Of a stretch of DNA of 64,000 nucleotides, positions 13,435-43,845 are shown piece after piece. The DNA lies in contig NC_007575.1 of the NCBI RefSeq assembly GCF_000012965.1, positions 2,046,001 through 2,110,000 of the forward strand. Direction: 5' to 3'. Each line of letters opens with the position of its first letter. The stretch's first letter is position 1. The stretch is from Sulfurimonas denitrificans DSM 1251. GTDB lineage: Bacteria; Campylobacterota; Campylobacteria; Campylobacterales; Sulfurimonadaceae. The notes under the pieces were generated by a model. It saw nothing but the letters and a program-made list of their open reading frames with translations, did not search any database and was not told where the DNA came from. A program made the position numbers and the translations under genes.

Positions 13435-13476
13435 ATTGTAATCTAATTTCAATTAATCTTAGTTGATTTCTATCAA
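13435..13476. promoter_or_regulatory. FNR/DNR-type box between divergent heme d1 genes, with leftward -10
   Basis: TTGATTTCTATCAA at 13463-13476 is a perfect TTGAT-N4-ATCAA dyad, the site of FNR, DNR and NNR-type activators. On the minus strand a TACAAT -10 box lies at 13440-13435. A box centred at -41.5 would give a start near 13428, 30 bases before the decarboxylase ATG. On the plus strand, TA-rich sequence near 13495-13504 could be the -10 for the gene at 13540. One site may thus serve both directions. Confidence 0.75.
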
Positions 13477-13539: not shown

Positions 13540-14106
13540 TTGAGCTATTTTCCCGCCTTTTTAAACCTTGAAGATAAAAGAGTCCTACTTGTTGGCGGCG
13601 GAGTGGTTGCCTACACAAAACTCTCTCATCTTTTGGACTTTACCTCAAATATCTCTATAATTTCGCTGGATTTATCTAGTGAAATTAGAGCGCTATCAAA
13701 AAAGAAAAATCTACATGTGATGCAAAGAGCTTATAGCAAGGGCGATATAGCAAATTTTGATATTGTGATTGTTGCGGTTGATAACATTTCTCTACAAGCA
13801 GAGATTTTTGAGGAGTCAAAACGTTATAATTGTTTATGCAGTTGTGTTGATTCTACAAAATATACTCATTTTATATTTGGTTCTTATATAAAAAAAGATG
13901 ATTTAACCATCGCAATATCAACATCTGGATCATCTCCTGCGCTCGCAAAGCAGTTAAAAAAATATTTTTTGAAGTTGATTCCCTCTGATATAGGTATTTT
14001 TTTGCAAGAGATGAAAATATTAAGAGAGACTTTGCCAAAAGGCAAGGAGAGAATGCAAATGCTCCAAAGAAGAGCAGAAGATTATATGAAAAAATGGAGT
14101 AATTAG
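13540..14106 (+). CDS. Precorrin-2 dehydrogenase / siroheme synthase N-terminal-like
   Basis: This 188-residue protein starts with LEDKRVLLVGGGVVAYTKL, the NAD-binding loop of Met8/SirC and the N-terminal half of CysG. The SCVDSTKYTHFIFGSYIKKDDLTIAISTSGSSPALAKQLK region of that family follows. It should oxidise precorrin-2 to sirohydrochlorin and may insert iron. Together with CobA/NirE downstream it supplies siroheme for heme d1. The start is a TTG at 13540, because the nearby ATG is out of frame and stops at once. It is divergent from the siroheme decarboxylase and one base-step from the next gene. Confidence 0.85.
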   Translation: MSYFPAFLNLEDKRVLLVGGGVVAYTKLSHLLDFTSNISIISLDLSSEIRALSKKKNLHVMQRAYSKGDIANFDIVIVAVDNISLQAEIFEESKRYNCLCSCVDSTKYTHFIFGSYIKKDDLTIAISTSGSSPALAKQLKKYFLKLIPSDIGIFLQEMKILRETLPKGKERMQMLQRRAEDYMKKWSN

Positions 14107-17606: not shown

Positions 17607-17648
17607 TTGATATAAATCAACTACTTTTAAAGTAATTCAGACTAAACT
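17607..17648 (+). promoter_or_regulatory. FNR/DNR-type box and -10 of the nor operon
   Basis: TTGATATAAATCAA at 17607-17620 is a perfect TTGAT-N4-ATCAA dyad. A TAAACT -10-like box sits at 17643-17648, so a start near 17655 would place the dyad at -41.5, the class II activator position. The first gene of the operon starts at 17691, after a GGAG ribosome binding site. Activation under low oxygen or NO by a CRP/FNR-family protein is inferred. The rest of the 200-base gap is AT-rich and holds nothing else I can name. Confidence 0.8.
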
Positions 17649-17690: not shown

Positions 17691-18017
17691 ATGGTTGATG
17701 GAGTTTTAATGTCGCAAGATATTCTTGTAGATGATTTTTTGACAATCTTTGTCTCTTCTACTCTTGTATTGATATTTGGAGGATTCTATGTTGGTATATA
17801 TACGGCTATAAAAGTTAACCTTCTAAAAAAATGGATGATGCCTCTTGGCTACTTTTTTTGGATTTTGACTGCTTATTGTTTGTATTTGATGGGAAGTTTG
17901 ATGCATGTAAATGAACTTACAGCTAAAGCTTTAGTTGTTGCTGCTATTGGTTTGTTACTACTGCCACATGCAGTCTATTACATGCAAGATCATGTTCATC
18001 AAGAAAATGAACATTAA
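17691..18017 (+). CDS. Membrane protein, first gene of the nor operon
   Basis: This 108-residue protein has three predicted membrane helices (about residues 18-37, 46-64 and 75-93) and ends in a His-rich tail (Q-D-H-V-H-Q-E-N-E-H). It is not a known Nor subunit that I recognise. It starts the transcription unit behind the FNR-like box and is 39 bases upstream of norC. The position resembles accessory genes such as norE or norH in other denitrifiers, but similarity is not evident. The tail could bind metal. A role in NorCB assembly or stability is inferred. Confidence 0.7.
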   Translation: MVDGVLMSQDILVDDFLTIFVSSTLVLIFGGFYVGIYTAIKVNLLKKWMMPLGYFFWILTAYCLYLMGSLMHVNELTAKALVVAAIGLLLLPHAVYYMQDHVHQENEH

Positions 18018-18056: not shown

Positions 18057-18743
18057 GTGGCTAAAAGATCCGTATGGAGTGATAATCGCTTCTGGCAACG
18101 CACAGCAGCTTGGATTACAGGTTTTGCTTCAGTTTTACTTATTTGGTTGACATTTGATACAAGTGCGCAAATATCGATGGGTACTGATGCAGACATACAA
18201 AATGGTGTAACAAAAAGGGTTCCAGGACCTACTGTTATTAATTATAAAATCACTTATGAGATGAATAAGAAACGTCAGCATGAAATTCCAGTAATTGGTG
18301 GAATGAACGCAGAAGGAACTTCAGCTTTCCAAGAAAAAGAGAAATTCTTTGGTAGAGATGACTGGTCTGAACAAGAGGCTGGCGAATTACTTCACCTTGG
18401 TAAATTAGCTTCTCAAACTAAAAACTGTATGAATTGCCATACTTTACTTGGAAATGGTGCATATTATGCTCCAGATTTAACAAAAGCTTGGTTAGATCCA
18501 GCATGGGGACCTGAGGGTTCAATGATGGGAATGACGAGTAAAGAGACAAAAGAAGAAGCAATGGCTGAATTCTTACAAAACCCGTCTCAATACCCGACAC
18601 ATGCTCGTATGATGCCAAACCTTGGTATTACTGCTGAAGAGGCTAAGGGTCTAGTTGCTTTCTTAAAACATATGGCAACAATAGATACAAATGGTTTCCC
18701 AAGAAACTTTGGAAAAATTCAAGGAGCAGTAAATGGCAAATAG
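18057..18743 (+). CDS. norC: Nitric oxide reductase cytochrome c subunit
   Basis: This 228-residue protein carries one N-terminal membrane helix (about residues 17-37) and a periplasmic cytochrome c domain with the heme motif CMNCH at residues 124-128. An M-M-P-N-L-G-I segment near residue 184 probably supplies the Met ligand. It delivers electrons to NorB. The start is a GTG at 18057 with a TAGGAGG ribosome binding site. NorC is usually about 150 residues, so the section of about 70 residues between the helix and the heme domain is extra. It overlaps norB by 11 bases. Confidence 0.93.
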   Translation: MAKRSVWSDNRFWQRTAAWITGFASVLLIWLTFDTSAQISMGTDADIQNGVTKRVPGPTVINYKITYEMNKKRQHEIPVIGGMNAEGTSAFQEKEKFFGRDDWSEQEAGELLHLGKLASQTKNCMNCHTLLGNGAYYAPDLTKAWLDPAWGPEGSMMGMTSKETKEEAMAEFLQNPSQYPTHARMMPNLGITAEEAKGLVAFLKHMATIDTNGFPRNFGKIQGAVNGK

Positions 18744-20157
18744 TTATTTAAAATCTGAATCTAAAAAGTTAGCAACATGGTACTTTACAGTTGCTGCAAC
18801 TCTTTTTGGAGCACAGTTACTTTTTGGTCTTGTAGCAGCTATCCAGTATGTTATGCCAGGTTTCTTATTTGAAATACTAGATTTCTCTGTAGCTAGAATG
18901 TTACACATCAATGCACTTGTTGTATGGATGGTTTTTGCAATGTTTGGTTCTGTTTATTGGTTATTACCTGATGAAACTGGTATTGAAACGGTTGGTATCG
19001 GTATGGGTAAACTCCTTTTCTGGGTATTTACTGCAGCCGTAACTGTTGTTGTTCTTGTATATCTATTCATTCAAGTTGGACCTGCTGATGAAACATCAAT
19101 CTGGTTTATTCATGAAGGTCGTGAGTATATTGAAGCACCACGTTGGGCTGACTTAGGTATTACTGTTGTTGCACTTGGTTTCGTTGCAAACCTTTTCATG
19201 ACAGGTATGAAAGGAAACCGCTCTGGTATCGTAACTGTTCTTATGGCAGACATGATTGCTTTTGCTGGTCTTTACTTAACAGGTATGTTCTATACTGACA
19301 ACATTTCAGTTGATCAATTCTGGTGGTGGTGGGTTATTCACCTTTGGGTTGAAGCTACATGGGAAGTTTTTGTTGGTGCAATTGCTGCTTATGGTTTAAT
19401 TACTATGATTGGTGCACACCGTAAAGTTGTTGAAATGTGGTTATGGATCGAAGTATCAATGTTATTTGGTTCTGGTATCCTTGGTCTTGGTCACCACTAC
19501 TTCTGGATCGGTACACCTGAGTACTGGTGGGAAATTGGTGCTCTTTTCTCTGCGTTAGAGCCACTTCCACTTGTTGCTATGTTTATCCACGTTCTTTATG
19601 ACTGGGGAAAAATGCAGGGCGAAGAAGATGCAAAAGGACAGGAAATTTCTGTTATTACAAACAAACCAGCATTTACATGGTTCGTTCTTAATGCATTTGG
19701 TAACTTCTTAGGTGCTGGTATCTGGGGATTCTTCCACACATTACCACAAGTAAACCTTTATACGCACGGAACACAGTTTACATCTGCTCACGGACACTTA
19801 GCGTTCTTTGGAGCTTATGCAACTATTCTTGTTGGTATGATGTATTTAGCTGTTCAAGGTAAAAACGGTATTAAAGTACTTAACAATACAAAATCAACTG
19901 TCTGGGCTACTAGCATGATTGTTGGTGGTGTTGTTGGTATGACTGTTGCACTTACAATTGCTGGTTACTCAGATGTTATTATATCTCGTGCACAAATGGG
20001 TGCTACTTGGGCTGGTTACTTTGATGCGCAGGGAACAACTTGGTTGGTACAAGGAATGGTATGGAGACTACTAATGGGTGTTGTTACATTTGTAGGTTTC
20101 CTATTCCTAGCTAAAGATTTATTGAGTATCGGTAAAGCTACTCACCACGTAAGATAA
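18733..20157 (+). CDS. norB: Nitric oxide reductase catalytic subunit
   Basis: This 474-residue polytopic protein belongs to the heme-copper oxidase superfamily and reduces NO to N2O. The expected metal-binding segments are present: the low-spin heme His in MLHINALVVW, IHLWVEATWEVF and GHHYFWIG for the heme b3/FeB site, and HGHLAFFGAY near the C-terminus. The length fits a two-subunit cNOR and not the longer quinol-fused qNOR. Arg is encoded largely by CGT and Gly by GGT, unlike most neighbours, which suggests strong expression. Confidence 0.95.
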   Translation: MANSYLKSESKKLATWYFTVAATLFGAQLLFGLVAAIQYVMPGFLFEILDFSVARMLHINALVVWMVFAMFGSVYWLLPDETGIETVGIGMGKLLFWVFTAAVTVVVLVYLFIQVGPADETSIWFIHEGREYIEAPRWADLGITVVALGFVANLFMTGMKGNRSGIVTVLMADMIAFAGLYLTGMFYTDNISVDQFWWWWVIHLWVEATWEVFVGAIAAYGLITMIGAHRKVVEMWLWIEVSMLFGSGILGLGHHYFWIGTPEYWWEIGALFSALEPLPLVAMFIHVLYDWGKMQGEEDAKGQEISVITNKPAFTWFVLNAFGNFLGAGIWGFFHTLPQVNLYTHGTQFTSAHGHLAFFGAYATILVGMMYLAVQGKNGIKVLNNTKSTVWATSMIVGGVVGMTVALTIAGYSDVIISRAQMGATWAGYFDAQGTTWLVQGMVWRLLMGVVTFVGFLFLAKDLLSIGKATHHVR

Positions 20158-20168
20158 GGAGAGATAAG

Positions 20169-20333
20169 ATGAATGCAATGTTTGAACCATTCGTAGATGT
20201 AGTACCAAGTTTTTTTGGTACATTGTCTCAAGGTCCATTGACTCTAACTATTTTCTTGCACACTGTAATTATTCTTCCAATGTTTTGGATTTATAAGCAA
20301 GAAAAAGCTCGTTTAGAGCAAGAGGGTAACTAA
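20169..20333 (+). CDS. 54-residue membrane protein at the end of the nor operon
   Basis: A short frame opens 11 bases after norB with a GGAGAG ribosome binding site and an ATG. The product starts MNAMFEPFVDVVPSFFGTL, has one hydrophobic helix (about residues 23-41, ending in M-F-W-I-Y-K), and ends in a charged tail K-A-R-L-E-Q-E-G-N. Its codon use matches norB. Small one-span subunits are known in other heme-copper enzymes (CcoQ-like), and this may be an equivalent for NorCB. No family is recognised. Confidence 0.7.
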   Translation: MNAMFEPFVDVVPSFFGTLSQGPLTLTIFLHTVIILPMFWIYKQEKARLEQEGN

Positions 20334-20350
20334 GTATTTGAAGCGTCATC

Positions 20351-20403
20351 AGGGCCCAATAGGGCCTTGAGTTTCAATTATGTTTCGGGTCCAATAGGAC
20401 CTG
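20351..20403 (+). promoter_or_regulatory. Tandem hairpins with compensated base pairs between nor and nirS
   Basis: Two copies 35 bases apart fold into the same 7-base-pair hairpin with loop AATA. Copy one is GGGCCCAATAGGGCC (20352-20366) with an outer A-T pair, and copy two is GGGTCCAATAGGACC (20387-20401) with an outer C-G pair. The copies differ at two stem positions and both changes keep pairing (A-T to C-G, C-G to T-A). Neither is followed by a long T run. They may be an RNA processing or stability element, an attenuator, or a paired protein site in front of nirS. Confidence 0.7.
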
Positions 20404-20433
20404 TAATTTGTCTATTTTAGAAGGAGAAATAAA

Positions 20434-22074
20434 ATGAGATTAAATAAATTAGTATTATCGGTAGCTGCTACTGCAGTTGTTGGTTCAGGCATGCTTGTAC
20501 AAGCAGCTGGTTTTGATGCTGAGAGTGTTTTTGAGAAAGAGTGCCAAGGGTGTCATGGTCCTAACCTAGAGGGTGGTGTTGGTTCTGATTTACGTCCTGC
20601 TGTTACTGCTAAGAAAAACTCTTATGAGTTAGCTGAAACAATTTTGAATGGTAAAGCTGGTACAGCAATGCCTTCATTTAAAGATAAGATTTCTAAAGAT
20701 GATGCTGATAAAATGGTTGATTATATTCAACACTTTAAAGGTAGAGTAATTAAGCAATTAACTCTTGATACAGTTAAAGCTGCATGGAAACCTTTAAATG
20801 ACAGAATGGCATTCTTTACAAAGTATCCAAATGCTGTTGATGTTAAGAAAAATACAGATATCTGTTTCGTAACTGAGCGTGATGCTGAGCGTGTTGCATT
20901 CGTTGATGGAACAAGTGGTAAAATACTATCTAAGCACCCTGCAGGTTTTGCGGTTCACGTAACTGTTACAAACAAACGTCAACCTCGTTATGCTTACTCA
21001 ATCTCTCGTTCAGGTTTAGTAACAATGTTTGACTTAAATACTCCAGGTCAACAAAAAATTGCTGAAGTTCAAGTTGGATCAGACTCTCGTGGTCTTGCAG
21101 TTTCTCCAGATGGAAAATACCTAATGGCTGGAAACTATGTTCCAGGCGGTGCTATTCTTCTAGATGCTATGACTCTTGAGCCTTTAAAAGTTTATCCAAC
21201 ATCAAGCGTTATCAAACCAAATGGTGATATTGATTCATCTCGTGTAGCTGGTATTTTTGATACTCCATATGGTCCTTATTTTGCATTTGCACTTAAAGAT
21301 GGTGGTCACGTTTATATCGTAGATTACTCTAAGCCAACTTTCCCAATCGTTGGAGATATTCCAAATATTGGAGATATTCTTCATGATGGTTTCTTAAATG
21401 AAGGTAAAGAGATTGGTCGTTACCTATTTATCGCTTCTCAAGGAAGTGACGTTGTTGGTGTTGTAGACTTTAAAACTAAATCTTTAGTAACTAAAATCTA
21501 TACAGGTCCAGCATCTAAGCCACACCCAGGTCAAGGTTCTTCTTGGTATAACGAAACTCTTGGACAACAACTTGGAGCAACAGTTAACATGAACTTAGGT
21601 CAAGTTACAATTTGGGATGATCACTTCGATGTTATCCGTCAAATTCCAACAGGTGGTGGTGGATTGTTCGTTGGAACATCTGAGCATACTCCATTTATTT
21701 GGGCAGATAACGTTCTTGGTGGTTCAGATGTTTGGAATCAAGTTCACTTGATTAACAAGCAAACTCTTGAACTAGACAGAATCATTACTGTTGGAACATC
21801 TGAGGGCACTGTTACAGATCCTGTAACTCACAAAGTACTTTACAAATGGGAAGTTCCAACTGTTAAAGATGATAAAGGTGCTGCTATAACTCCTCGTATT
21901 CTTCACGCTGAGCCAGCAAATCACGGTCACTGGACTATGATTTCTGAGTGGAATGCTGGACGTATCGGTATTTATGAAGCTAAAACAGGTAAATTTGTTA
22001 AATACATCACTGGTTTAACAACTCCTACGTTTACTTACTCTATCGAGCACAGACAAACTATTCCAGGTGCATAA
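20434..22074 (+). CDS. nirS: Cytochrome cd1 nitrite reductase
   Basis: This 546-residue periplasmic enzyme reduces nitrite to NO. A signal peptide (about residues 1-25, ending V-Q-A-A) is followed by a cytochrome c domain with CQGCH at residues 37-41 and then an eight-bladed d1-heme propeller. Repeats such as FVTERDAERVAFVDG and LAVSPDGKYLMAGNYVPGG are typical, and HAEPANHGHW near residue 490 matches the conserved His region of the d1 pocket. The length is normal for the family. Strong AAGGAG ribosome binding site and CGT/GGT-biased codons point to high expression. It is followed by a terminator. Confidence 0.96.
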   Translation: MRLNKLVLSVAATAVVGSGMLVQAAGFDAESVFEKECQGCHGPNLEGGVGSDLRPAVTAKKNSYELAETILNGKAGTAMPSFKDKISKDDADKMVDYIQHFKGRVIKQLTLDTVKAAWKPLNDRMAFFTKYPNAVDVKKNTDICFVTERDAERVAFVDGTSGKILSKHPAGFAVHVTVTNKRQPRYAYSISRSGLVTMFDLNTPGQQKIAEVQVGSDSRGLAVSPDGKYLMAGNYVPGGAILLDAMTLEPLKVYPTSSVIKPNGDIDSSRVAGIFDTPYGPYFAFALKDGGHVYIVDYSKPTFPIVGDIPNIGDILHDGFLNEGKEIGRYLFIASQGSDVVGVVDFKTKSLVTKIYTGPASKPHPGQGSSWYNETLGQQLGATVNMNLGQVTIWDDHFDVIRQIPTGGGGLFVGTSEHTPFIWADNVLGGSDVWNQVHLINKQTLELDRIITVGTSEGTVTDPVTHKVLYKWEVPTVKDDKGAAITPRILHAEPANHGHWTMISEWNAGRIGIYEAKTGKFVKYITGLTTPTFTYSIEHRQTIPGA

Positions 22075-43699: not shown

Positions 43700-43758
43700 A
43701 ATATAATCCTTTAATATATTTCATAAATTCAAGGAGACTTTTTTCCCTGATTTGTACG

Positions 43759-43824
43759 CAAAAGGAACTAGTCCCTTTTGCTCCGCTAGCCGCTACGTCA
43801 CTGAAGCTTGACACGAAAGTGTCA
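43759..43824. repeat. Two inverted repeats between nifS and nifU
   Basis: The first (43759-43780) is a 22-base near-palindrome, CAAAAGGAACTAGTCCCTTT followed by TG, with one mismatched pair. The second (43809-43824) is TGACACGAAAGTGTCA, a perfect 6-base stem with a GAAA tetraloop on the plus strand, followed by TTGTTTTT. On the minus strand, in the nifS-nifU transcript, they could fold as two hairpins in the gap and set the ratio or stability of the two messages. They might also mark a terminator for plus-strand transcripts. Confidence 0.55.
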
Positions 43825-43845
43825 GATTGTTTTTAACTAATGTGA

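Follow-up and report, generated by a model that had tools for sequence, protein, structure and literature searches.

NirS produces the toxic gas nitric oxide, which is removed by Nor, and denitrification in redoxclines and at vents is to a major part carried out by Sulfurimonas. Stem-loops that act by selective RNA processing and stabilization (SRPS) are found in pufBALMX and in cggR-gapA of B. subtilis. Another set has been described for the cip-cel operon of C. cellulolyticum (PMC4423207). With regard to small RNAs (sRNAs), CJnc190 of Campylobacter jejuni, a member of the same phylum as Sulfurimonas, blocks the ribosome-binding site of its target, ptmG (PMC8687705). Denitrification sRNAs have also been reported, namely DenR in Paracoccus, which is thought to work through a regulator (PMC8139620), and PaiI in Pseudomonas, for which experiments ruled out that it controls nirS translation directly (PMC8139620; PMC5703892). 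We found no direct action of an sRNA on nirS translation in the open-licence papers searched, including a 2021 review (PMC8139620), and our search of the open-licence literature returned no Sulfurimonas sRNA or start-site map.

The nor-nirS junction analyzed here resembles these systems in part. As in the SRPS cases, a stable, structure-conserved stem-loop is located between two genes of one operon, in the intercistronic gap of an operon with products needed in unequal amounts. However, the hairpin described here holds its distance to the downstream start instead of the upstream stop, pairing of a second RNA is predicted alongside, and the system is known from sequence. In contrast to CJnc190, the candidate sRNA would target nirS, comes from an unrelated locus, and belongs to a 3' UTR downstream of a small-peptide ORF, with a 24-nt pairing that covaries across species. 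The common ground with DenR and PaiI is denitrification, but for the RNA described here, direct pairing with nirS is indicated. By these comparisons, the hairpin is a new case of the conserved intercistronic stem-loops, and the candidate sRNA is a new RBS-blocking sRNA with a new target. We consider it likely that this junction works as an RNA control region with two parts, placed where the nirS segment of the message begins.

The window, a stretch of 64,000 nt, corresponds to positions 2046001-2110000 of the single-contig genome of 2,201,561 bases. All features of the operon are on the + strand. The order begins with an FNR/NnrR-type box (TTGATATAAATCAA, 17607..17620, an exact pattern match), which is likely the promoter element of the nor-nirS operon, and continues with an ORF of 108 aa without a Pfam or NCBIfam family (17691..18017), the gene for a norC-like cytochrome c subunit (18057..18743; PF00034), and that for a norB-like nitric oxide reductase subunit of the COX1 family (18733..20157; PF00115, E 1e-52). 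A conserved membrane-type ORF of 54 aa (20169..20333), which matches no family in Pfam or NCBIfam, lies between norB and the hairpins. These are followed by the nirS Shine-Dalgarno sequence AAGGAG (20421..20426) and nirS itself (20434..22074), which encodes a cytochrome cd1 nitrite reductase of 546 aa (PF02239 and PF13442). The nirS and nor genes appear to share one message. A second perfect FNR/NnrR-type box (TTGATTTCTATCAA) is present at window positions 13463-13476, before a gene starting at 13540 whose product is siroheme/heme d1 pathway-like.

A preliminary description of the sequence had reported two hairpins in front of nirS, and they are real as described: they begin 35 nt from each other, each has the loop AATA, and their stems differ at two pairs (A-T/C-G and C-G/T-A) that both stay paired. 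Hairpin 1 has the core AGGGCCC-AATA-GGGCCTT at 20351-20368, and two further pairs, one of them G-T, extend it to a 9-bp stem at 20349..20370 (TCAGGGCCC-AATA-GGGCCTTGA). Hairpin 2 (CGGGTCC-AATA-GGACCTG, 20386..20403) has 7 bp, including one G-T, and its base is 30 nt upstream of the nirS ATG. A repeat search detected the corresponding 23-nt direct repeat with 78% identity. The 119 nt from 20332 to 20450 fold with -38.3 kcal/mol (z = -4.9), a value equaled by none of 200 shuffles. Elsewhere in the genome, the hairpin motif has one match only, with 1 mismatch. The Rfam entry freshwater-2 RNA (RF02980) is similar in that a CAAUA-loop hairpin is likewise followed by AAGGAG and AUG; membership was rejected, as the score of 23.8 bits came mainly from the ribosome-binding site and was below the gathering score of 49.9 bits. 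Similar strong dyads, GCAAAAGGGACTAGTTCCTTTTGC and GCAAAAGGGAGTTGTTCCTTTTGT, were noticed at window positions 43700-43845 and at L108:15396-15499, where they belong to a longer common intergenic repeat.

NirS relatives were found in 98 of 200 genomes of the family, and nearly all relatives that carry a name are Sulfurimonas. The DNA upstream of nirS was read for 90 loci, 78 with the 54-aa ORF before nirS and 12 without it. Hairpins of -8 kcal/mol or better between positions -72 and -18 of nirS were present in 71 of the 78 nor-nirS junctions and in none of the 12 stand-alone nirS genes (p = 2e-10). The usual state is a single hairpin, often capped by UUCG or CUCG, so that the tandem arrangement is not the norm that it had seemed to be: two hairpins occur in five genomes only, the window's own and its closest relatives. 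Based on sequence, fold, and alignment, hairpin 1 is a lineage-specific extra copy, and hairpin 2 is the counterpart by position of the near-universal nor-nirS hairpin.

The preliminary description had argued from the paired differences between the two copies that selection keeps the fold or the dyad symmetry and had proposed a comparison of related nor-nirS gaps. Two copies in one locus with two paired differences are by themselves weak evidence. The evidence between species is strong and concerns hairpin 2 only; the stem of hairpin 1 is invariant in all five genomes that have it and hence without covariation. Within the tandem group, hairpin 2 is altered at most pairs and remains 97% paired, with double changes at 5 of its 7 pairs. 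Among 20 genomes picked for equal geometry, a choice that eases alignment and leans toward hairpins that pair, pairing is intact in every one of the 120 cells of the 6-bp core, and 5 of the 6 pairs have double changes. The number of double-changed cells was 17, compared with 5.1 in shuffles (none of 500 as high), and slid controls lost the signal. When RNAalifold was left to choose its own structure, it returned the same hairpin. Variants of stem and loop among the relatives include GGGCC-UUCG, GAACC-UUCG, GGUAUUGACUC, and CGGAUCU-AAAA. The fold z-scores of single genomes are modest (median of -2; 30 of 69 gaps unexceptional) because shuffled short GC-rich gaps also fold well. In four loci of the family genus g7 (L049, L053, L055, and L072), a long inverted repeat (AGACTAAGGTCTATC...GATAGACCTTCGGTCTA) and more hairpins, possibly a small mobile element, widen the nor-nirS gap to 181-194 nt.

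While selection on the fold of hairpin 2 was thus borne out, the same comparison speaks against dyad symmetry as a regulator site. The spacing of the tandem inverted repeats, 35 nt or about 3.3 helical turns, would suit DNA operators for a transcription regulator. However, stem sequences and loop lengths vary freely while pairing, including G-U pairs, is kept, and an FNR-type box is found at the operon start instead. A transcription factor operator was rejected, since no half-site is kept and the stems diverge with pairing intact, and we regard this explanation as highly improbable.

In the 63 genomes with a single hairpin, which share ancestry and do not represent 63 independent cases, the distance from the hairpin to the nirS ATG is 28.0 +/- 2.1 nt. 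The distance from the upstream stop to the hairpin is 8.9 +/- 7.4 nt in the same genomes. The steady distance to the nirS start and not to the upstream stop indicates that the hairpin serves nirS, in agreement with its original assignment to this gene. In one genome (G073), nirS has neither nor genes in front nor a hairpin, and a promoter region comparable to that of the operon lies directly before it. Consequently, the hairpin seems dispensable where nirS is the first gene. The structure of the hairpin is kept by compensatory change, its position is fixed, and it is tied to the operon context.

The bare presence of a hairpin says less. In a sample of 464 kb of the own genome (the window and 20 further stretches), 31 of 120 co-directional gaps contain hairpins of -8 kcal/mol or better, mostly without T runs, so that hairpin presence and a missing T run are weak arguments; the case rests on conservation and position. 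The statement that the hairpins are not plain terminators holds, but its T-run argument is weaker than it seems. A terminator scan flagged both hairpins via their T-rich tails (2 found versus 0.3 expected). These tails, GTTTCAATTA and TAATTTGTCT, are without a T run, and an intrinsic (Rho-independent) terminator was rejected, as no U run directly adjoins the stem. It is possible, though rather unlikely, that the hairpin is a 3'-end element of the nor message, such as a weak or Rho-assisted terminator or attenuator or a barrier to 3' exonucleases, that cuts nirS transcription relative to nor. The scan result, the location of the hairpin close behind the last nor ORF in many genomes (0-39 nt), and the rarity of T runs at the gene-end hairpins of this genome are compatible with such an element. 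The fixed position relative to the nirS start and not the nor stop is not, only scattered T residues occupy the first 8 nt past the stem, and a strong terminator in front of nirS would be odd.

A purely translational function, in which the hairpin keeps the U-rich standby region and the Shine-Dalgarno sequence free or fences off ribosomes from the upstream ORF, seems to us equally doubtful. The fixed distance of 28 nt is just the footprint of a 30S subunit or an sRNA, and the predicted openness of positions -24..-1 is slightly higher with the hairpin (0.498) than with the hairpin deleted (0.488). However, this is an effect of 1 percentage point, for which a role as an accessibility element or insulator was rejected, and stand-alone nirS genes do without a hairpin. 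Our preferred reading is that the hairpin acts on the RNA, probably in processing or stability, as the boundary of the nirS end of the message. Present only where nirS trails the nor genes, this stem-loop (hairpin 2, with hairpin 1 as an extra) is fixed before the nirS ribosome-binding site and would most likely shield the 5' end that cleavage leaves on the nirS segment, and thereby separate the output of nirS from that of nor. The genome encodes an RNase J-type protein, a 5' exonuclease.

Control of nirS translation had been suggested for the hairpins, but a candidate sRNA pairing site of 24 nt (CTATTTTAGAAGGAGAAATAAAAT, 20412..20435) between hairpin 2 and the nirS start could not be seen in the preliminary description. 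The site includes the Shine-Dalgarno sequence and reaches into the nirS start codon as far as its U. It is the perfect antisense of the 3' UTRs of two distant peptide genes of the same genome, at about 27.86 kb and 1771.8 kb of G000:C1 on the opposite strand relative to the match and just behind a 43-aa peptide ORF. The candidate sRNA locus is hence apart from its target and complementary to the target's ribosome-binding site. Its predicted transcript (...AUUUUAUUUCUCCUUCUAAAAUAGG-loop-CCUAUUUUAG) consists of the 24-nt antisense followed by a hairpin, with the arm CCTATTTTAG at both loci (about 27.9 kb and 1771.8 kb). The sRNA types were grouped into class A (UUUAUUUCUCCUUCU) and class B (UUUAUUCUUCCUCCU), and antisense 3' UTRs were found as 39 copies in 30 genomes. 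No Rfam family matches the sRNA. In the own genome, no further antisense site was found within 3 mismatches. The predicted duplex with nirS has -44.7 kcal/mol, compared with -16 to -32 for other starts of the region. The sRNA also matches, in part, the start region of the 108-aa ORF (TAGGAGAAATAAAATG). When the genus was searched with the junction, short matches to TCTATTTTAGAAGGAGAAATAAAAT were found outside nirS as well, two of them in the own genome. Two other near matches to AAGGAGAAATAAAAT at 705 and 1668 kb were rejected as targets, being identical repeat copies and not gene starts.

The 3' UTR of each genome was compared with the nirS start of the same genome. At sites of the window type, perfect pairing extends over 22-24 nt in most genomes and over 11-19 nt in a few. 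Genome G064 has one compensated change (CUGUUUUAG/CUAAAACAG), with the 3' arm of the sRNA hairpin changed too, and G097 has a 20-nt pairing with three compensated transitions. Genomes with variant sites of their own pair over 12 nt (G105) or 13 nt (G075, G159, G138, and G194). Among 15 distinct pairs, 19 double-changed cells were counted at 11 of the 24 positions, some of them outside the Shine-Dalgarno core; dealing whole sRNAs to other genomes gave 6.7 such cells, and none of 2000 shuffles reached 19. The registers were set by the core match, which biases percent paired upward; a fairer yardstick is the count of double changes relative to shuffles. Across 62 genomes, own pairs were better than permuted pairs (0 of 10000). 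When only the variant genomes were considered, run length again exceeded the permutations (0 of 10000), but duplex energy did not differ significantly from them (p = 0.19). The two RNAs have thus undergone compensatory changes.

That the complementarity between nirS and the peptide genes simply reflects a strong ribosome-binding site of a common type, without regulation, is very unlikely in our view. AAGGAG pairs with any C/U-rich stretch, and the 3' UTRs of many peptide paralogues lack a match to nirS. However, the perfect 24-nt match is unique in the genome, the matched changes across genomes extend beyond the Shine-Dalgarno core, and G073 retains the antisense without the peptide. Hairpins are present also in genomes whose peptide genes lack the nirS antisense, and hairpin and sRNA are therefore separable; since G073 in turn has the sRNA without the hairpin, a single inseparable unit was rejected.

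In the own genome, one 43-aa peptide ORF, MKKVILAITIMLGALQADSVVKYDVQETNTPISKPNHPNTDIY or a relative, precedes each antisense segment, and one copy presumably sits between rpsU and dnaG. The secreted peptide has no match in Pfam or NCBIfam. Peptide relatives occur in 71 genomes (E <= 1e-6), and nirS is present in 64 of these (odds ratio of 26, p = 3e-19). The DNA upstream of the two own loci is conserved and includes a dyad across the -10 region (TAAATCNGATA..GATTTA), which a search for other genes in the own genome located at the two sRNA loci only. An FNR-type box is present at one of the two own copies and at 19 of the 39 antisense copies overall, 19-20 nt upstream of the -10 region in 18 of those 19. 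In G073, the -10 region is joined straight to the antisense and hairpin, with the promoter kept and the peptide ORF missing.

Perfect complementarity, covariation of the two RNAs, and co-occurrence with nirS together connect the sRNA to this gene, and since the pairing would cover the Shine-Dalgarno sequence and the first two bases of the start codon, a block of ribosome binding is the natural reading. This previously undescribed, trans-acting sRNA thus very probably lowers nirS translation. It would be carried in the 3' UTR of the 43-aa secreted-peptide mRNA, or, in G073, would stand without the peptide, under an FNR/NnrR-type promoter similar to the operon's own. Its single-stranded AUUUUAUUUCUCCUU is predicted to pair with the nirS Shine-Dalgarno region, with the free 5' part UUUUAUUUCUCCUU starting the pairing; the sRNA hairpin, which can open onto nirS because its 3' arm has nirS sequence, would then open and extend the duplex, block ribosome binding, and lower NirS. 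Hfq was not found in the genome. With a conserved hairpin and an sRNA acting on nirS, the cell could set NirS and Nor apart, and the cross-species covariation supplies ready-made swap mutants for sRNA and site.

More tentatively, all parts might be joined in a dual-function RNA. An FNR/NnrR-controlled mRNA would encode the 43-aa secreted peptide, which co-occurs with nirS, and the 3' UTR of this mRNA would be an sRNA that caps NirS synthesis by covering exactly the 24 nt from the fixed leader hairpin to the start codon. The hairpin would combine with the sRNA-target duplex into one processing site, nitric oxide production would be held down relative to the nitric oxide reductase of the same message, and paralogues with other 3' UTRs would constitute an sRNA family aimed at other genes.

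Peptide paralogues such as L285, L286, L293, and L294 have the same promoter and 5' UTR and different 3' UTRs (e.g., TTTATACTCCATCC...GGATGGAG) that do not match nirS, and these divergent 3' UTRs may be sRNAs for other targets. The 5' UTR of the peptide genes (L161, L162, and relatives) contains a small hairpin, AGAGCGTAATGCGCTCT / AGAGGGTAACGCTCTCT, with both sides changed between paralogues. Two genomes, G135 (L298) and G071 (L299), encode a relative of the secreted peptide at a distance of about 3.5 kb downstream of nirS, and this location suggests that the peptide itself has a function linked to NirS.
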